This document shows positions 4,525-39,892 of a stretch of DNA of 39,968 nt, in pieces. The notes under the pieces were generated by a model, which worked only from the letters and a program-made list of their open reading frames with translations, was not told the DNA's origin and ran no database searches. The translations under genes and the position numbers were made by a program. Source of the DNA: a virus; the IMG/VR virus record IMGVR_UViG_3300042453_005149, positions 1 through 39,968 of that record; one strand, 5' to 3'. The first letter of the stretch is position 1. The number at the start of each line of letters is the position of its first letter.

Positions 4525-5001
4525 TTAGTACCTCTTTAGTTTTCCTAAGTTATATAGACCAAGTTCCAGAAAACTGCCCCATTCCTTGTCCTCGGAGGCT
4601 CCCCGGGCCCTTCTGAATTCCTCTCCGTAGTCGCCTAGTACTTCTTCGTTCTTCTCTACATCCCGGATGAAGTGATACACGCAAATTTCCTCGCCTTCCC
4701 TTTTTACATATCTTATCTCAACGTTCTGGTCTCGTTTGTTATTGGCATGGTTCACTATGCCGCCGTAACCCATTGGAATTATGTGCTTTTTGAATGAGTC
4801 GGCGTAGTCGGCCGCAAACTTGTATTCGTCGGCGTACGAAGAGCATAAATCAGCGACGGAACCCCTGTCCACAAGCACGCCTATCACCTCTAGATCGTCC
4901 CCCTTCTTTATCCTCTTTGAGGCGAAAAGTCCCCTTCCTGCTCCCGGTTGAGTGGATTGAGAAACGTAAAATCTGTCGTCTTTCTCTTCAATCTCTATCA
5001 T
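4525..5001 (-). CDS. SET-domain protein (putative lysine methyltransferase)
   Basis: 158 residues. Three SET-domain landmarks are in order: GAGRGLFASKRIKKGD at about 21-36 (compare GRGVFA..I..GE), IVNHANNKRDQN at about 84-95 (compare the NHS..PN motif that binds S-adenosylmethionine), and NEEVLGDYGEEF at about 117-128 (compare GEEL..DYG). The family transfers a methyl group from S-adenosylmethionine to protein lysines. The length is close to a minimal SET domain, with no extra domain. The start overlaps the upstream stop as ATGA with a GGGGA ribosome site. A second SET protein is at 32.9-33.4 kb. Its target is unknown; a virion or host protein are both possible. Confidence 0.8.
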   Translation of the reverse strand: MIEIEEKDDRFYVSQSTQPGAGRGLFASKRIKKGDDLEVIGVLVDRGSVADLCSSYADEYKFAADYADSFKKHIIPMGYGGIVNHANNKRDQNVEIRYVKREGEEICVYHFIRDVEKNEEVLGDYGEEFRRARGASEDKEWGSFLELGLYNLGKLKRY

Positions 5002-24919: not shown

Positions 24920-25629
24920 GATTCAAAGAATGGCTGGAAAAGATTGACGAGTCGGCCCCGAGAACACAGAACGCTCCCAGTCCGTTCACGGCCGCCGCCA
25001 ACGCAGCCAGTAGATTCGGCAGCGGTGCGACCCAACTCGCCATCTCGGCGGATTTGGACAACGCGACGGTGGCCGGTCTGGCGGGAGGGGTCGGCAGCGC
25101 TATAAACAGAAACCTTCAAAGAATGGGCCACAACATAGCACAGACGCCGAGAATAGAACCCTTCCCCAGAGACAAGAAGCCACTCATAGAGCACGGAAGC
25201 CTTCCGCTTCAATTGCCGATTATAGACGGAAGGCCCGTCCTGGGTCAGAGTTTCACTTACGGCAAGGCCGGTGTCAGAAGCCTCAGGGGATTAGTCTCGG
25301 ATCGTTCTTATGAGGACGGAAAAATCAGAAAGGTCGGCGAGGATTTGGACGAGATCGCTCCTCCCGGCAAGTTTGAACTTTATCAGCGAATAGAAAACAG
25401 GGAAGACGCGATCAGAAGTTATCAAACCGCCGTGAATTTCACGCAGGCGCTCATACACGTGATCATCAGGGATAAAATGCAAAACGTGGATAAGTTGAAG
25501 AACAAATACGACGTGGACTCCATGAAATTGGAATCCACCCAGACCAATGAAAACAATACAATAACTTGCGTCTTCTCATTCAAACCGAATGCGACAATGG
25601 TTGACAAGGACGATGGAGGGGAAATATGA
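24916..25629 (+). CDS. Unknown protein with capsid-targeting-like N-terminus
   Basis: 237 residues. It begins MRFKEWLEKIDESAP, a clear match to the M-x-F-x-x-W-L-x-x-x-x-E motif. Cleavage after IDE would leave a protein starting at Ser13. Residues 25-70 are small-residue-rich and helical (GGVGSAINRNLQRMGHNIAQ), and the C-terminal half has a helix (AVNFTQALIHVIIRDKMQNV) and a final beta segment. It is not recognised. Its start overlaps the previous stop (ATGA) and its stop overlaps the CCA-type enzyme gene, so the three are co-translated. I infer a packaged internal protein. Confidence 0.65.
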   Translation: MRFKEWLEKIDESAPRTQNAPSPFTAAANAASRFGSGATQLAISADLDNATVAGLAGGVGSAINRNLQRMGHNIAQTPRIEPFPRDKKPLIEHGSLPLQLPIIDGRPVLGQSFTYGKAGVRSLRGLVSDRSYEDGKIRKVGEDLDEIAPPGKFELYQRIENREDAIRSYQTAVNFTQALIHVIIRDKMQNVDKLKNKYDVDSMKLESTQTNENNTITCVFSFKPNATMVDKDDGGEI

Positions 25630-27200
25630 AATCATTCAAACAATTCGTGGAGCAGAGGTCCAAAGTAGTTTCCGAGGCCTCGGAGAAAAAGAACAACGAC
25701 TGGAAAAAGGAGTACGTCAAGCTCGAGAAGGGCTTCGTGCCGCCGAGCAACATGAGGCCGATCATCCAAGCGTTTCACGACAGCGGCAACATAGAGTTGA
25801 CCAATGACACCTCGTCCAAAGTTACGATGCCCAAGAAGTCCCTCTTCCTTGTGGGCGGCCCGGTTAGGGATTTCCTGATGGGCAAGAGACCCAAGGATCT
25901 GGACCTCGCCACGAACGCCACTCCCGAACAAATAGCGCTCATACTGCACAACGCTGGATTCAAGGTGGATCACGACGGAGAGGGCAATCCCGACTACGAC
26001 AAGACAGGAAAGACAGACAAGAATGGCAACCGGATCAAAGAGATGAAGCTCTCCTTTAGACCAGCGATGGCATCCAAAGACGACAACAAGAAATGGTACC
26101 TCAAGGGCCGTGACGCGAGCCAAGAAGGAAGACCGTTCGTAATAGGAGCCGTCGTCAACGGCGAGGAATTTGACATAGCCACCTTCAGGAAGGACGCGAA
26201 AACCATCAACGGCCAGTCGGAAGTGGACTTCGTGGACAATCCCCACGAGGACGCGGAACGAAGGGACTTGACCATCAACGCCATGTACATAGAACTCACG
26301 AAGGCCGACGGAGAAAACAACAAACTTTACGACCCGACCCGACAGGGATACCACGACGTTCACAACAGCAGGATCAGGACCGTCGGCAAGGCCGAGGACA
26401 GGTTCAACGAGGACAAGTTGAGAGTAATGAGAGCCATCAGGTTTTATTGCAAGTTCGGCAAGAATACCGACATGGACAAGGACATAGAAGCGGCGATACC
26501 GAAATTCAGAGACCTAGAAGGCGTAGCACTTGAACGCATCCGAGACGAATTCGTGAAGGGCCTGGAAGACCCGGAGATAGATCCGAGGAAATACATAAAC
26601 ACCTATGGTCGCCTCGGACTGTTGAGCAAGGTCCTGCCCGGCGTCATGCTTAACACGGCCGTACCGCCGCAACTCAGGGACAAGAAGGACAAGTTCCTCG
26701 CCCTCGCTTGGATACTACAGGACAACCCGCTAGGTAAGGTCGCCGAAGTACTCGGAAGATCACGCAGAATAGGAGACAAAGACCTCCAGACAGGGTGGTC
26801 AAATCAGGAGAGGGACATAGTTCTTTATCTCCTAAGGCTCAAGGAATTTGACATGGACCAACTGGACGACCTCGTCAGCAAGAAGAAGGTCTTGGGAGTC
26901 ACAAAAGATCAGATAAAGAAATGGGTGGAACTCTTCGACGTCGCCGACGACAAAGAGGTCAGGAGCGCCCGTCCGACATGGGCCCGCAGAGTTCGCACGT
27001 TCGCCGATTTCAACCCCGATCCGACAAAGTTGGTAAGTTGGTTCGCCCGAGACGAGAAGGGCCAGCCAACCAAAGACGTGCACCCGGAGATAAGACAGAT
27101 CAACATGGCCGACGTACCTCCTCAATTCAGAGGCTCAGTAATAAAGGACATCAACAAGAAGAAGATCAAACAAATGTTCGACGACCATTTCGCCGCCTGA
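25626..27200 (+). CDS. CCA-adding/poly(A) polymerase-type nucleotidyltransferase with N-terminal targeting-like segment
   Basis: 524 residues. Nucleotidyltransferase motifs of the class II tRNA CCA-adding/poly(A) polymerase family are visible: LVGGPVRDFLMGKRPKDLDL at about 75-94 (GG..RD and the DxD metal-binding aspartates), RRDLTINAMYI at about 212-222 and RFNEDKLRVMRAIRFYCKF at about 255-275. The C-terminal region is helical. The family adds CCA to tRNA 3' ends or A residues to RNA. The first 18 residues (MKSFKQFVEQRSKVVSEA) resemble T4 capsid-targeting leaders, and VSE before A fits prohead-protease specificity. An insertion of roughly 30 residues lies between about 100 and 165 relative to usual enzymes. 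A strong GGAGGGG site precedes it. Packaging is an inference. Confidence 0.88.
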   Translation: MKSFKQFVEQRSKVVSEASEKKNNDWKKEYVKLEKGFVPPSNMRPIIQAFHDSGNIELTNDTSSKVTMPKKSLFLVGGPVRDFLMGKRPKDLDLATNATPEQIALILHNAGFKVDHDGEGNPDYDKTGKTDKNGNRIKEMKLSFRPAMASKDDNKKWYLKGRDASQEGRPFVIGAVVNGEEFDIATFRKDAKTINGQSEVDFVDNPHEDAERRDLTINAMYIELTKADGENNKLYDPTRQGYHDVHNSRIRTVGKAEDRFNEDKLRVMRAIRFYCKFGKNTDMDKDIEAAIPKFRDLEGVALERIRDEFVKGLEDPEIDPRKYINTYGRLGLLSKVLPGVMLNTAVPPQLRDKKDKFLALAWILQDNPLGKVAEVLGRSRRIGDKDLQTGWSNQERDIVLYLLRLKEFDMDQLDDLVSKKKVLGVTKDQIKKWVELFDVADDKEVRSARPTWARRVRTFADFNPDPTKLVSWFARDEKGQPTKDVHPEIRQINMADVPPQFRGSVIKDINKKKIKQMFDDHFAA

Positions 27201-31090: not shown

Positions 31091-31302
31091 TCGCCCCTCG
31101 TCGATCTGTCTATGGCATCCCTTTTACCCTTTGCTCTGGAACCCTTTCTCTTTTCGCTCTCAATTGTGCCAGCCTTTCCGTGCTTCATGCTGTGCATGCT
31201 CTTGGATACTGCCCTCTGATGCAACTCCAAAGAGCTGAGCCTTTCCGGCATCTTGGTCGCATCCCTCTGATTTCTCTCGTTGATCCAATGTGAAAACTTC
31301 AT
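31087..31302 (-). CDS. Small basic protein with capsid-targeting-like N-terminus
   Basis: 71 residues, MKFSHWINERNQ at the start, then a Ser, Lys and Arg-rich body with a high positive charge. The motif matches M-x-F-x-x-W-I-x-E and cleavage after INE would free the basic part. It overlaps both neighbours by ATGA. DNA binding inside the head would fit the charge, but is not shown. It resembles T4 internal proteins only in size and composition. Confidence 0.6.
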   Translation of the reverse strand: MKFSHWINERNQRDATKMPERLSSLELHQRAVSKSMHSMKHGKAGTIESEKRKGSRAKGKRDAIDRSTRGE

Positions 31303-32120
31303 ATATTCAACATCCCCCTGAGTCCTCTTCTGTCGCTCCTCGTGTAGTTATCCGTCCCGTACGAAACTCCGTATCGGCACTTGTTGAATTCCACTGTCTG
31401 GAAAGGCGTCTCCATGGGCTCCACAAGATGAATGTTAATGCCCCTGTAGCCGAATTCTCCCTCGTTCTTGAGGCACTTGCCGATATCCCGCATCATGATC
31501 TCGTTGAGGCTTATGTCCAAAGCCCTGTAGGCCATCTGGATTGCGCTCATGAATCCACCGGGCATCTTCCATTCCTCTATGTTGAACTTTCTACCCATGA
31601 TCACGTATATGTCGTCGCAACCGGCTTCTATACACTGCTCCAGTGGGGCGAGTTGTCTGCTTCCCGCGTCCACCCATCCGTTCCTGTCCTCCACCAGAGC
31701 CGTTATGGCGACGGCCCCAAGGACCGCCTCCGCAAAATCATCCGAATTGCAGGACTTGTTGGAAACATACTCCATTCTTCCATCCTGTATGTTCATCCTT
31801 ACGACTACGCTCTCGCATATAGGGTCATTTTTCATGGCCTTTCTTACAATCTTTTCCATGGGTCTCTGATTCAATAACCCCCTCCGCCAAGGAAAGGTCC
31901 AGTTCACGCCGAACACGTCAAATATGTTTGATATGTCGGACCACATGTCGGCCAAACCCTTCGGGCCGAGATAAGAATAAGATGCAGCGCATATGGAGCC
32001 GGAGGATATTCCTATGGTAAAATCGGCATTTATTCCCTCGTTGTGAAGTCCGAGAGCCATTCCCGCCTGAACAGATCCCCTCGCTCCTTCTCCGGTGAAA
32101 CAGAATCCAACCTTGCTCAT
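31299..32120 (-). CDS. Patatin-like phospholipase
   Basis: 273 residues from the ATG at 32120 (MSKVGFCFTGEGARG), which overlaps the preceding stop as ATGA. Patatin landmarks are present: an oxyanion-type GEGARG loop at about 9-14, the nucleophile GISSG at about 36-40 (GxSxG), and the catalytic aspartate in DAG near residue 151 (usually DGG/DGA). The family is a Ser-Asp dyad lipase or phospholipase on membrane lipids. It has no signal peptide or membrane segment. Its operon has three capsid-targeting-like proteins around it. A role in membrane attack, lysis or host takeover is possible. Confidence 0.85.
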   Translation of the reverse strand: MSKVGFCFTGEGARGSVQAGMALGLHNEGINADFTIGISSGSICAASYSYLGPKGLADMWSDISNIFDVFGVNWTFPWRRGLLNQRPMEKIVRKAMKNDPICESVVVRMNIQDGRMEYVSNKSCNSDDFAEAVLGAVAITALVEDRNGWVDAGSRQLAPLEQCIEAGCDDIYVIMGRKFNIEEWKMPGGFMSAIQMAYRALDISLNEIMMRDIGKCLKNEGEFGYRGINIHLVEPMETPFQTVEFNKCRYGVSYGTDNYTRSDRRGLRGMLNI

Positions 32121-32428
32121 TTCTTCTTCCTCTTTTTCCTTTTCTTCTTGTCGCACGTGCATTTCGGATAACAAAAGCCGCAGCATCCAAGCCTGAATGG
32201 CACTTTTGCGACGTCTTTCGTGGTCGTCCCGCTATCCGTAGGAGGCGAAGCCGGTTGATCTCCCGATCCCGAAGAACCACCGCCATCGGAGGAGCCTCCG
32301 GGTGAAGGAGCACTAGATCCGGCTCCAGCGTCGCCACCTCCAGTTCCCCCGGCACCCGCAGCTCCACCGGCCGAACCGGCTGCTGCTCCGTCCTCCATCA
32401 ATCTCAACCAATCGGTGAACTTGATCAT
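32117..32428 (-). CDS. Gly/Ala/Ser-rich protein with targeting-like start and Cys/Lys tail
   Basis: 103 residues. The start MIKFTDWLRLMEDG matches the shared motif. Residues 15-65 are a Gly, Ala and Ser-rich linker. The C-terminus has a cysteine cluster (CCGFCYPKCTC) followed by a lysine/arginine run, which could bind metal and DNA. It has an AAGGAG ribosome site and a TATATA box 16 bases upstream of the start. It is the first gene of the patatin operon. Function unknown. Confidence 0.6.
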   Translation of the reverse strand: MIKFTDWLRLMEDGAAAGSAGGAAGAGGTGGGDAGAGSSAPSPGGSSDGGGSSGSGDQPASPPTDSGTTTKDVAKVPFRLGCCGFCYPKCTCDKKKRKKRKKK

Positions 32429-32875: not shown

Positions 32876-33361
32876 TTATTTGGGCTTGAAAACTTGGGAT
32901 GTGCATGATCCCAATTGACCGCCATTCATTCCCTTTTCTTGGGAGCCCAAACTGATCTTGTTTCTGTTCTGAAAATAATTCGGTCCGTAATTAACGAATA
33001 TTTCCTCGTCCTTCGCTATGTCGTTTATGGCCTTGACGTCCGCGTATTGTTCTTTTAAATTAAAATTTATTGAGGCATTGTTGTCGTCCTGATGATTGTA
33101 TATCTGCCCGTACCCCATGACCATCAGAAAATGACCGCCGTGTCTCTTGCACTCCTCGCACGGACAGGTGTTTGTAAACATGTATGACCATATTGCAGGG
33201 TCCTTGTGGTAATTCATTCTGTGTGCCATGATCACCATAGGACAACGCTCAATTAGTTCTCCTTTCTTTATATCTTCAGTGGCGAACACGCCCCTTCCGT
33301 GGATTTCAGAGTGACGGACGACCATCTTTCGCTTGAAATCGTAATCTGGCTTTTCTTCCAT
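32876..33361 (-). CDS. Second SET-domain protein (putative lysine methyltransferase)
   Basis: 161 residues. HGRGVFATEDIKKGELIE at about 20-37, QIYNHQDDNNASINF at about 86-100 and DEEIFVNYGPNYF at about 119-131 are the three SET motifs in order. The NH...N motif and the C-terminal NYG tyrosine that form the S-adenosylmethionine and lysine channel are intact. A Cys cluster (CPCEECKRHGGH) is inserted at about 66-77, and the protein does not resemble the first SET protein closely outside the motifs. Target unknown. Confidence 0.82.
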   Translation of the reverse strand: MEEKPDYDFKRKMVVRHSEIHGRGVFATEDIKKGELIERCPMVIMAHRMNYHKDPAIWSYMFTNTCPCEECKRHGGHFLMVMGYGQIYNHQDDNNASINFNLKEQYADVKAINDIAKDEEIFVNYGPNYFQNRNKISLGSQEKGMNGGQLGSCTSQVFKPK

Positions 33362-33642: not shown

Positions 33643-34653
33643 CTATTCTTTGATTCCCTCCCTCATCCTGAAAATTTGATCAAGGCTTCTGCCCGCACTC
33701 TTTTTCGCGAGGTCGGCAGGAAGAAGACTTTTGCGGACTGCGAGATTCGGATTCCCGAACTCCCTCACGTACTTGAACCTGGAGGGACGGTTCTTCAGGG
33801 CGTCGTCCACTTTGTCTATGTCGTTCACCGTCATAATGAAAACGACGCCGTCATGAGTGGTGTAGGACCCGTCTAAGCCGTTCAATATGATGTCAAAAGT
33901 AAACTTTATATTCTTGTTATCGCCGCCGATTATGCACCTGCGACGGTCGTAATAATTGTCGAAGTCCTCGAAGAGCACGATGCACTTCCTCGGTATCTGA
34001 GAGAACATGAGCAGCAGGTCGTGATTGCTCCAGTCCGGATTGAGGGTGAATATCATCACGGGCAACTTGTGCCTCGTAGCAAGATACTTTATGAAGAAAC
34101 TCTTCCCGTTGCCCGGAGGCCCGTAAAGCAACGCTCCCGTCTTCTTCCTTTCCCCGGCCGCGACTTCCGAAACCTCCCTGTCTATGTCCCTCCACAAGGA
34201 CTCGTCCAAGGCGGGTTCTCCGTACTCCTCCTTCAATGAGCCTATCTTGTCCACGCCGTAAGGAAGCATCAACTGCACGGGTACGCCGAGAGTACAAAGT
34301 TGCATCTCTTTCAATTTTGTTCTCAAGAAATTTTTCAACCACGAATATCTCCACCTGAAACAGGTCAGGATCGTCACGTGATCCTTCTCGTTCCAACCCG
34401 CCTGAAGGAGCCTTTCCGAATGATTCATATAAAACCAGGGAGCTCCCTTGAAAAAACAGAACGCGACGAAGGCGACGGGATGTCTGTTCTCCGAGACGAA
34501 TTCCTCGTAGATCATGATCTTACGGCCCCCGGCACAAAGGTCGTAAAGAGTCTTGTAGGTGTTTGAATCCACCCTCATTTCTATGAGGAGGACGTATTTG
34601 AACAATGCCCACGCGCCGACGAAAGACGCTATGACGGTGAAAAATGCATTCAT
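33643..34653 (-). CDS. Bcs1-like AAA ATPase with N-terminal membrane anchor
   Basis: 336 residues from the ATG at 34653 (MNAFFTVIASF); a longer frame lies inside the cysteine-rich gene. Residues 2-24 (NAFFTVIASFVGAWALFKYV) are a likely membrane helix. Walker A is GPPGNGKS at about 176-183, Walker B is CIVLFEDFD near 224, and downstream NGLDGS and TVNDIDKVDDALKNRPSRF fit AAA sensor and arginine-finger regions of the Bcs1/AAA group. Mitochondrial Bcs1 moves folded proteins across membranes; phage Bcs1-like proteins are uncharacterised. Chaperone-like assembly or membrane remodelling is possible. No clear ribosome site. Confidence 0.8.
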   Translation of the reverse strand: MNAFFTVIASFVGAWALFKYVLLIEMRVDSNTYKTLYDLCAGGRKIMIYEEFVSENRHPVAFVAFCFFKGAPWFYMNHSERLLQAGWNEKDHVTILTCFRWRYSWLKNFLRTKLKEMQLCTLGVPVQLMLPYGVDKIGSLKEEYGEPALDESLWRDIDREVSEVAAGERKKTGALLYGPPGNGKSFFIKYLATRHKLPVMIFTLNPDWSNHDLLLMFSQIPRKCIVLFEDFDNYYDRRRCIIGGDNKNIKFTFDIILNGLDGSYTTHDGVVFIMTVNDIDKVDDALKNRPSRFKYVREFGNPNLAVRKSLLPADLAKKSAGRSLDQIFRMREGIKE

Positions 34654-34672
34654 GTGTTTGATGCTAACAAAA

Positions 34673-36829
<2,157 letters not shown>

Positions 36830-36834
36830 GCACT

Positions 36835-36876
36835 TATATAGGTTTTTTGGAAAAAAACACCATGGCATATATAAAT
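36835..36876. promoter_or_regulatory. Two TATATA boxes in a divergent gap
   Basis: TATATA occurs at 36835-36840 and TATATAAAT at 36868-36876, between the minus cysteine-rich gene (start 36829) and the plus ArdC-like gene (start 36879). The second box is a near-exact TATAAATA-like element. It lies 38 bases upstream of the minus gene and directly before the plus start, so the plus gene would be almost leaderless if it used it. A T-run/A-run palindrome lies between. Confidence 0.35.
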
Positions 36877-36878
36877 CC

Positions 36879-38153
36879 ATGGAATTCGCGACATGGCTTT
36901 TCATAGAAACGGCACAGAAATACATCAGGTCACGCAAGGAGACCAGTCCCAAGAATCCGGACAACACCTTCCTGGTGCTCTACGGGGCCGATCCAGACGA
37001 GAGGGAACTCATGTTCTCCCGAAAGGAAGAACTGAAAAGACTCGGCTTCAGGTACTTCGGGATAAACGGCACCTACAGCCTTTTCAGCACGAAACTCACC
37101 CCGGAAACAAGAACCAGATTAGAGAACTTGGGCGTTGATCTATCCGGATACGATACCCAGCACGAGCCCAATCAGGAACCAGCTCCGACCACACAAGAAC
37201 CCTCCAAGGCCGACGCCACCCTCGAGAAGATGCACGCGGAACTCGAGAAGGTCAAGACCTCGGACAAGAAGGCCCAGTCGCTGATAGACCGGATAGAGAA
37301 GATGATTGAAGAGGTCGCGAACGGCACCGACGAGGCGGCCAAGCAGAGTTTCATCAGGAACTTTCTAGACTTCTCGTCCAAGTTCTACAACTACAGTTTC
37401 CACAACCAGATGCTCATATGGATTCAGAGCCGCGGACAAGCAAGGCACGTGGCCGGGGCCAGACAATGGGAACAGAAGTTCGGCAGAACAGTTAGGGATT
37501 GGAAGAACGCAATCTCAATACTCGCCCCCGCCAGATCAAAGAAGGAAGTGGACAACCCCCAGACCGGCGAGAAAGAACTTCGCGAAAGGATGTATTTCAT
37601 AGCGAAGTCCGTCTACGACGTCTCCGCAACCGCGCCCATCCCCGGTCACCCGAAAAGCTTCCAGCCCATCACCAGAAAGGACTGGAGCAAGGACAACAAC
37701 GAAGAGATAGAGGAAATAAAACACCTCGTCTCGGCGCTGGAGGACTGGGCCAAGGAGCAGGGCATAAAAGTGGACATAGAAGACATGGATTCCGAAAAGG
37801 GCGGATACTCGTCGGGTGGAAAGATAGCCATAAACAGCACCTTCAAGGGAATAAACATGTTCAGCACCTACGTCCACGAGGTCGCGCACGAACTGCTGCA
37901 CTGGAAGGAAAAGGAAGGAAAGCAGAGCAGCAGCAGGGACAAGGAAATTGACGCAGAAACGACAGCCTACATCGTCCTGAAACACTTCGGCATGGAGACT
38001 CAGGACACGAGCAATTACCTCGCCCTGTGGAGGGCCACCGGCGAGGACGTCAGAGCCAGAAGGAAGAACATCCAGAAAGCCGCCATGGAGATCATCAACG
38101 GCATCAGGAGCAAGACGGAACAGGTGGAACCCGAGGATGAGTCAGAAACCTAA
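36879..38153 (+). CDS. ArdC-like anti-restriction metalloprotein with capsid-targeting-like N-terminus
   Basis: 424 residues from the ATG at 36879 (MEFATWLFIETAQK), 17 codons inside a longer frame. The N-terminus fits M-x-F-x-x-W-L-x-x-E with Glu at residue 10. Residues about 160-225 (FSSKFYNYSFHNQMLIWIQS, ARQWEQKFGRTV) match the ArdC N-terminal ssDNA-binding domain. A zincin motif HEVAHELLHW lies near residue 332, with the third ligand probably in EIDAETTAYI about 25 residues later. In conjugative plasmids ArdC protects incoming DNA from type I restriction. No ribosome site is visible, and a TATATAAAT box lies just upstream. Confidence 0.8.
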   Translation: MEFATWLFIETAQKYIRSRKETSPKNPDNTFLVLYGADPDERELMFSRKEELKRLGFRYFGINGTYSLFSTKLTPETRTRLENLGVDLSGYDTQHEPNQEPAPTTQEPSKADATLEKMHAELEKVKTSDKKAQSLIDRIEKMIEEVANGTDEAAKQSFIRNFLDFSSKFYNYSFHNQMLIWIQSRGQARHVAGARQWEQKFGRTVRDWKNAISILAPARSKKEVDNPQTGEKELRERMYFIAKSVYDVSATAPIPGHPKSFQPITRKDWSKDNNEEIEEIKHLVSALEDWAKEQGIKVDIEDMDSEKGGYSSGGKIAINSTFKGINMFSTYVHEVAHELLHWKEKEGKQSSSRDKEIDAETTAYIVLKHFGMETQDTSNYLALWRATGEDVRARRKNIQKAAMEIINGIRSKTEQVEPEDESET

Positions 38154-38779
38154 ATCTTGTACTTCTTGAATACGGATTTGTACCTCTGGTGGAGTTTCTT
38201 TTTGTTTACCACGCCTTTGGCTGCCTTTTTGCTGATTTCTGTGGCCATGTAGGCCTGTATTTCGTCTTTGGTCACGGCGGAGCAATATCCTATCTGCCGA
38301 AGATTCTTTTTGAATTTGGACATGTTGGATTTTGATATGGAAGAAGTTATCTCATCCATTTGTCCCTTGTATTTCATGTCGGTGTAATACAAGGCGTGAG
38401 CCAGTTCGTGGTCAAATGTCTTGTTCTTGAGAGAATCCAAGCCGATGATGTACTGTCTGGTTCCATTGACAAAAAGACCATCCACAATTTCCTTCATCAT
38501 CACGTCGTACGGGGTCTCCACACAGTTCACATCGTAGCACTTCTTCGCCACGATCAAAGGCAGGTTGAACCCCACGAAATCAGATGGATAAGAAAAACAC
38601 CCCTTGTCCTCCGCATACCAACGGAAGTAATCCCAGACCGAGAAATTGTTGTCTCTGAATTTCTTGGAAGGACTTTCGTAGAACTCCTGAACCCTGAAGA
38701 ACAACATCGCCCTCTCGTAGTGGTCGGGCACCACCACAGCGAATATGTTCGGCATTATTTCCTTGATCTTATATTTCAT
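38150..38779 (-). CDS. Zinc metallopeptidase-like protein
   Basis: 209 residues. HELAHALYYTD at about residues 123-133 is a HExxH zincin motif with the usual following A-L-Y; EIQAYMATE at about 173-181 could hold the third metal ligand. The rest is not recognised. It ends in a basic KKKLHQRYKSVFKKYKI tail and has no signal peptide. Its start overlaps the stop of the caspase-like gene as ATGA, so both are on one transcript. It is unlike the ArdC-like protein apart from the active site. Confidence 0.65.
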   Translation of the reverse strand: MKYKIKEIMPNIFAVVVPDHYERAMLFFRVQEFYESPSKKFRDNNFSVWDYFRWYAEDKGCFSYPSDFVGFNLPLIVAKKCYDVNCVETPYDVMMKEIVDGLFVNGTRQYIIGLDSLKNKTFDHELAHALYYTDMKYKGQMDEITSSISKSNMSKFKKNLRQIGYCSAVTKDEIQAYMATEISKKAAKGVVNKKKLHQRYKSVFKKYKI

Positions 38780-39747
38780 TTTGAGGGCAAAGGAATGAAG
38801 TTCATGTCAAACTTCCCGCGTCCCCCGTGATCCAATATGGGAATTCTCTGGGCGGGCGAGGGGCCGAAAAGCAGTTCTCCGAACATCCGGTTGTCCGGCA
38901 GAACCTTGTAATGAGGCTGCTGTCCCGACGATCCATGGCTCAAGGCAAACTTCTTCAGGAAACCGCCCACGGTCACGCTCCTGTCGTCCCTGACGGACTT
39001 GAACGTGGAGGCGAACCTTGATGCAAAGGCGCCCCTGATGGACAAATCCTCCACGCTGGAGGAACTGATTATCAGTATCTCTTCATAGACCCCGCTGTCC
39101 TCCCCGTAGTCCACTTCATAGGTAGTTTGGAAAAATTTTCTTCCACGGGAAATCTGTTCCACGTACACCGTCCTCGTGAAAATAGATATGAAGGGCATCG
39201 CCTCCTTGGAATAAGAGGAGGGCAACTCAGGAAGGAACGAGGTGGGCTTGGCCATCTGAATATTCCTGAGCAGGTCCCCGTCCTGTTTCAGGCTGTCTTG
39301 GATACTTCCTTCGGCGTGGCAGGTGTCAACGAGGAATATAAGCCTCTTTATGGGACGGCCGGATTTTCCGAGGGCCTCGAGGGCCTTGCTGAATTTGAAG
39401 CTGCCTCCTTGGGCGGTCATTATGAAACCGTTCCCGCTGCCTCCCCCGTGACTGTTGAAGTAGAGCAAAAGAGTCGCATCTGAATCCAGAGCCTTCGCCG
39501 TATCGGTCAATTTATTGTAGATGAAGGGAGACGAGACGTTGTGGTGCCTCTCGCACCTGAATCCGAGGGTCTTGTCCTTGAACACGCTCTCCATGAGCTC
39601 AAGGTTCCTTATCCGTCCGTCCTCGCTAGTCATAGTGAAGAGAACGGCCACGTTGTTGGCGGAAGGATCAATCGCTATGCCGGTCTTTTCCTGGGCGTTC
39701 GCTGCGAAACAGAACAAGAACAAAAAAATTGCAAGAAATCTATTCAT
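38776..39747 (-). CDS. Exported caspase-like (C14-type) protease
   Basis: 323 residues from the ATG at 39747 (MNRFLAIFLFLF) with AAGGAAACAT before it. The first 19 residues are a Sec signal peptide, with likely cleavage after ANA (residue 19). LLYFNSHGGGSGNG at about 92-105 has the catalytic His (SHGGG), and LIFLVDTCHAEGS at about 133-145 has the catalytic Cys (DxCHxG in caspase-like proteins). The rest follows the p20-like fold. It would act in the periplasm or outside the cell. The paired zincin gene is next to it. Confidence 0.85.
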   Translation of the reverse strand: MNRFLAIFLFLFCFAANAQEKTGIAIDPSANNVAVLFTMTSEDGRIRNLELMESVFKDKTLGFRCERHHNVSSPFIYNKLTDTAKALDSDATLLLYFNSHGGGSGNGFIMTAQGGSFKFSKALEALGKSGRPIKRLIFLVDTCHAEGSIQDSLKQDGDLLRNIQMAKPTSFLPELPSSYSKEAMPFISIFTRTVYVEQISRGRKFFQTTYEVDYGEDSGVYEEILIISSSSVEDLSIRGAFASRFASTFKSVRDDRSVTVGGFLKKFALSHGSSGQQPHYKVLPDNRMFGELLFGPSPAQRIPILDHGGRGKFDMNFIPLPSK

Positions 39748-39892
39748 ATGTTTCCTTTTCTTCAAATTCATCCGGCGAAAGGACCACAGTACAGTCCTGT
39801 TTCTCCAACCATATTTCATAAGAGTGGGAATCAAGCCTCCTTGTGATGTAGCCCTCTCTACCGTCCTTCAAGACCACTTGAACTCCGTTCAT
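39740..39892 (-). CDS. Small 50-residue protein of unknown function
   Basis: Starts at an ATG at 39892 and reads MNGVQVVLKDGREGYITRRL, then an acidic end (DEFEEKETYE) and a TAG. GGGG lies five bases before the start, and the start overlaps the upstream stop as ATGA. The end overlaps the caspase-like start by eight bases, so it belongs to the same transcript. The short beta-rich pattern is not recognised. Confidence 0.6.
   Translation of the reverse strand: MNGVQVVLKDGREGYITRRLDSHSYEIWLEKQDCTVVLSPDEFEEKETYE

Follow-up and report, generated by a model that had tools for sequence, protein, structure and literature searches.

A putatively exported caspase-like cysteine peptidase in a jumbo phage lineage

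Caspase-type proteases of bacteria are discussed as effectors of immunity and cell death, and a gene for such a protein on a viral contig raises the questions of whether its product is a peptidase of this family, in which compartment of the host it would act, and whether it acts jointly with the metallopeptidase encoded next to it. The window, the whole stretch of 39,968 bases that was analysed, is a complete IMG/VR virus record, the record itself being a genome fragment. The phage origin given in a preliminary description of this DNA is borne out by the contractile-tail genes of the contig, with Pfam domains gp25, baseplate J, Tail_P2_I, Phage_base_V and the tail-fibre N-terminus; the label of jumbo phage comes from relatives (cited below by L number), one of which is a 381-kb contig with genes for both the caspase-like protein and the metallopeptidase.

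Three overlapping ORFs of the minus strand occupy the right end of the window (Table 1). The caspase-like gene is read from an ATG at 39747, the mechanical ORF call beginning further upstream at a TTG. Its stop overlaps the start of the HELAH metallopeptidase (zincin) gene as ATGA (38776-38779), as had been pointed out earlier, and its own start overlaps the stop of the 50-aa ORF within ATGAATAG. The 50-aa ORF has no Pfam match and starts at 39892, the upper limit of the region originally singled out (38150-39892), which is exactly the three-ORF unit; L002, L003, L004 and L098 have a comparable short ORF, whose end coincides with the start of the caspase gene or falls shortly ahead of it. The gene convergent with the caspase-zincin unit (36828-38153, plus strand), syntenic in the same four relatives, encodes an ArdC-like protein (ArdcN, Pfam 5.8e-6) that has a zincin-type motif of its own, HEVAHELLHW.

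Table 1. Features of the three-ORF unit and the evidence on which each was assigned.
Feature	Coordinates	Strand	Evidence
Putative exported cysteine peptidase, caspase-like (clan CD, C14 type), 323 aa	38776..39747	-	Pfam, fold, signal, selection
Zincin-type metallopeptidase, 209 aa, HELAH	38150..38779	-	HExxH conservation, model, no signal peptide
50-aa ORF upstream of caspase gene, overlapping caspase start	39740..39892	-	ORF call
Predicted export-signal coding stretch MNRFLAIFLFLFCFAANAQ	39691..39747	-	N-terminal sequence analysis

The 323-aa protein belongs to C14, the caspase family in the broad sense, by its Pfam match, its dyad and its fold, the family to which the preliminary description had assigned it. 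The match to PF00656 (Peptidase_C14; E=1.5e-8) scores 35 bits against a curated cut-off of 21.4, and PF00656 matches 15 of 16 family members at E values up to 0.1. C14 is the only domain above the Pfam cut-off, and the protein has no Death or Ig domain by which a paracaspase would be recognised. An export signal (residues ~1-18), a variable linker (~163-213) and a p10-like part (from ~221) can be distinguished. The motifs SHGGG and DTCHAEG, to which attention had been drawn, contain His100 and Cys143, respectively; His100-Gly101 and Asp141-Thr142-Cys143-His-Ala are invariant in all 16 sequences, in the His-then-Cys order of caspases. The AlphaFold model has a pLDDT of 53, low around the linker and the C-terminus, because it was built from a four-sequence alignment; with this model, the best Foldseek match is to caspase-1 (E 8.5e-5), the best match on VIA re-alignment is to procaspase-3 (Z 14.4, 182 residues, 3.4 A), and the best 50 VIA matches listed are all caspases or procaspases (Z 13.0-14.4, about 180-207 residues). 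When the protein alone was searched by sequence against the PDB, no match rose above chance level (ribosomal S8). Locally, in the surroundings of His and Cys, the protein weakly resembles legumain and GPI transamidase (C13), but it falls below the Pfam C13 cut-off and its top fold matches are caspases.

Relatives were gathered by alignment queries against viral contigs and reduced to 16 distinct IMG/VR sequences including that of the window, to which the others are 43-72% identical. Homologues of the caspase gene are under strong purifying selection (pN/pS 0.05-0.27 between homologues and 0.04-0.26 in the mature part; dN/dS about 0.05 between the closely related L009 and L010). A search of the viral contigs with the single sequence had found none of the relatives that the alignments later recovered, and absence from pattern-based searches is thus weak evidence. 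No caspase relative was found in GenBank phages (50,697 records) or in a plasmid scan, no match in PHROGs, and nothing for either the caspase or the zincin in PADLOC or NCBIfam; there is no caspase of this type in LR756511, linked to the window by a baseplate gene, or in LR756502 and XacN1, linked by the zincin. Two scans of cellular genomes also found no relative, but they use short peptide patterns, which would overlook bacterial orthocaspases that are only distantly related, and a cellular origin is still conceivable.

The caspase-like protein appears to be exported from the bacterial cytoplasm, in keeping with the Sec signal peptide originally suggested for it. Signal peptides were judged heuristically, by hydrophobicity and small residues at positions -3 and -1; the N-terminus has a hydrophobic core followed by predicted cleavage at MNRFLAIFLFLFCFAANA/Q, i.e. 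ANA/Q, and its hydrophobicity stands out against shuffles of its own sequence (P=0.001). A hydrophobic N-terminus is present in 16/16 family members, with small residues at -3/-1 in most, and in the window and near relatives the cleavage-type sites (ANA/Q, AHA/Q, ATA/Q, ALA/Q) lie directly after the hydrophobic core. The N-termini of L028-L030, where the gene has a TTG start, and of L099 are short and without a basic residue, and those of L101 and L103 have no clear cleavage site. Among the window, L002, L003, L004 and L098, pN/pS is 0.32-0.52 in the signal region versus 0.10-0.26 in the mature part, a faster drift that is as expected of a functional signal.

The residues predicted to line the S1 pocket point to cleavage after a basic residue. 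Caspase-7 binds Asp in an S1 pocket formed by Arg87, Gln184 and Arg233; Asp365, Asp462 and Glu500 of MALT1, which cleaves after Arg, are placed similarly in the structure and bind Arg (PMC4357240). In a profile alignment, where MKTRNG of an ancestral effector caspase is paired with MTnEeG of the phage family, the position of the S1 Arg is taken not by a basic residue but by Glu42, invariant in 16/16; Cys-2, the position of MALT1 Asp462, is Asp141 throughout the family, not the Gln of caspases; and at the third position, that of MALT1 Glu500, no acidic residue is conserved. From Glu42 and Asp141, cleavage after Arg or Lys, not Asp, is predicted; of the two options that the preliminary description had named for P1, Arg/Lys or Asp, the basic one is favoured. 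With the caspases of C14A the phage protein shares its fold, the order of its dyad and the p20-linker-p10 layout, but it differs in having Glu42 for the S1 Arg, DTCHA for the QAC motif and an apparent export signal, in lacking a death-fold prodomain, and in being phage-borne. With C14B (MALT1, TbMCA2 and bacterial orthocaspases) it shares the acidic Cys-2 residue, an acidic residue at the S1 Arg position and the predicted basic P1, but it is without an Ig, death or other extra domain and has no close cellular sequence in the scans used. The linker between Cys143 and the conserved YGED block that follows is of variable length (44 to 71 residues), and the basic residue that recurs about +37/+38 from Cys143 in most members is a candidate processing site.

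The zincin seems to be the product of a separate, common jumbo phage gene and to stay inside the cell. Its HELAH motif comprises His124, Glu125 and His128, with Glu173 in the conserved segment KDEIQAYM as the likely third ligand, and both HExxH and this segment are kept in 9/9 aligned relatives. The model of the 209-aa protein has a pLDDT of 94, and its best fold match is PPEP-3 at a low Z of 4.8; Pfam matches to a toxin OB-fold and to MutS are below cut-off and were taken as chance. The protein resembles zincins of the PPEP/lethal-factor type in HExxH and, weakly, in fold. PPEP-1 is a secreted enzyme, whereas the phage zincin, which begins with the charged residues MKYKIKEI, has no signal peptide. 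The gene was found at 67 loci in viral contigs and in two phages of GenBank, one an uncultured phage of 642 kb and the other Xanthomonas phage XacN1. The XacN1 homologue, ORF432 (L112 6001-6552), is probably misannotated as an ABC transporter ATP-binding protein: the annotation is unsupported because relatives of the protein contain HExxH.

The preliminary description presented the zincin as a partner coupled to a secreted protease and proposed a search for the pair in other phages. The pair was indeed found: the zincin lies directly downstream on the same strand in five of the 16 caspase sequences (window, L002, L003, L004, L098), overlapping the caspase gene in all but L002, where the two adjoin, and directly downstream but convergent in L008 and L009 (L010 being nearly the same). 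Elsewhere the genes are 114 kb apart (on the 381-kb contig) or no zincin was detected (nine caspase contigs, all fragments), and no caspase was detected on 18 of the 23 zincin contigs tested, which are also fragments. In the sequence, the two genes are truly coupled in one sub-lineage, but not as a general rule; the notion of functional coupling to a secreted partner is not supported, the zincin being without a signal peptide, widespread without a detected caspase and variable in position. A homologue of the poly(A) polymerase / CCA-adding enzyme, whose head domain is also encoded in the window (25626-27200, plus strand; 1.3e-25), is found close to the zincin of L008 and of L009.

That the caspase gene resides in phages is indicated by its synteny, from contig to contig, with genes for patatin, ArdC, AAA and SET proteins. 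In L002, L003, L098, L026/L027 and L103 a patatin-like gene is no more than about 6 kb away from it, and the caspase gene accordingly belongs to an old neighbourhood of the phage lineage. No gene for lysis or superinfection was recognised beside it. Other genes of the window include that of the patatin-like phospholipase (31299-32186, minus strand), 64-81% identical in relatives; two of SET-domain proteins of the lysine methyltransferase type (32876-33361 and 4525-5001, both minus strand; Pfam 1.7e-15 and 9.5e-9); an AAA ATPase gene (33643-34839, minus strand; Pfam 8.3e-14), 75-77% identical in L002 and L003, whose product has a hydrophobic N-terminal stretch in a Bcs1-like layout; and a 764-aa ORF (34673-36967, minus strand), very rich in cysteine, which contains a long run of glycines and matches no Pfam family.

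On balance, the 323-aa protein is probably an exported, catalytically competent peptidase of C14 type with basic P1 preference that acts in the host envelope during infection. Its domain, fold, dyad, signal-like N-terminus, conservation and selection were computed; from there we infer activity, P1 preference, linker processing and compartment, and the substrate and role are guesses. The gene would encode an active peptidase long retained by a jumbo phage lineage; the enzyme would be made in the infected cell, exported via the host Sec machinery and released by signal peptidase, and would fold in the envelope compartment, which would be the periplasm if the host is Gram-negative, as is assumed. 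Such envelope or periplasmic action is plausible. The His100/Cys143 dyad would cut proteins after Arg or Lys, and the enzyme may itself be cut, or may have to be cut, in the variable linker that follows Cys143. Its targets might be host envelope or surface proteins, the cleavage of which could help with release, keep out superinfecting phages or neutralise a defence located in the envelope. The zincin would be a separate cytoplasmic peptidase of the phage, probably made from the same transcript in one sub-lineage.

Other explanations assign the enzyme a different place or partner. It could be carried on virions, or act at entry on surface or structural proteins, its signal serving for membrane targeting; the gene of L028-L030 lies near genes with repeat-rich, structural-looking products and the window is rich in tail genes, but the neighbours on other contigs are not structural, and tailed-phage virion proteins, which assemble in the cytoplasm, are as a rule made without cleavable Sec signals, so that such a role is unlikely. 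Caspase and zincin might instead act together, for example by one activating the other, as the overlapping, adjoining or convergent genes and their similar identity (about 70% across both) might suggest; joint action is nevertheless improbable because one protein appears to be exported and the other not, and the zincin contigs without a detected caspase, the caspase contigs without a detected zincin and the 114 kb between the genes on the 381-kb contig also speak against it.

Quite unlikely, too, is a caspase held in the membrane by an uncleaved N-terminus or acting on cytoplasmic host proteins: the N-termini of L101 and L103 might be read in this way, but the window and its near relatives have good cleavage sites, and even an anchor with its N-terminus inside would leave the domain facing the envelope. 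As for an inactive homologue, a decoy that would bind, but not cut, proteins of the host envelope, nothing in the data argues directly in its favour, although bacterial pseudo-orthocaspases without the dyad do exist (PMC6426788); with the dyad, the flanking Gly and Asp141 invariant in 16/16, it is very improbable. The exported, active peptidase remains the favoured reading, and the findings that could have spoken against the preliminary description turned out otherwise: a caspase fold was found, the export signal is kept, and the catalytic pair is never lost.

Precedents exist for parts of this picture. Some bacterial metacaspases have an N-terminal hydrophobic segment, possibly a signal peptide, and eight Clostridium metacaspase operons have been described as phage-related (PMC3501461). 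Caspase-family proteins of giant viruses (Pithovirus, Solumvirus and Medusavirus; BFVD) are likewise viral and of caspase-type fold, but they belong to viruses of eukaryotes, not to tailed phages, and are about 10% identical. None of the best 50 BFVD fold matches is a tailed-phage protein with a caspase annotation, and the overviews of jumbo phages in PMC7824862 and PMC13282480 do not mention caspases. No earlier description of an exported jumbo-phage caspase was found in the open-licence literature, and the putatively exported tailed-phage version is to that extent new.

With its single small catalytic domain, clear dyad and predicted basic P1, the phage caspase is directly testable. To our knowledge, few phage proteases are known in the envelope compartment; if the favoured explanation is true, caspase chemistry would be used there by a virus. 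It is conceivable, though doubtful, that the family is restricted to phages and serves jumbo phages as an exported envelope weapon, cutting proteins of the host's surface or periplasm after Arg or Lys so as to exclude competitors, inactivate an envelope defence or trigger release. In that event, a type of protease associated with cell suicide and immunity would have become a viral offensive tool outside the cytoplasm.
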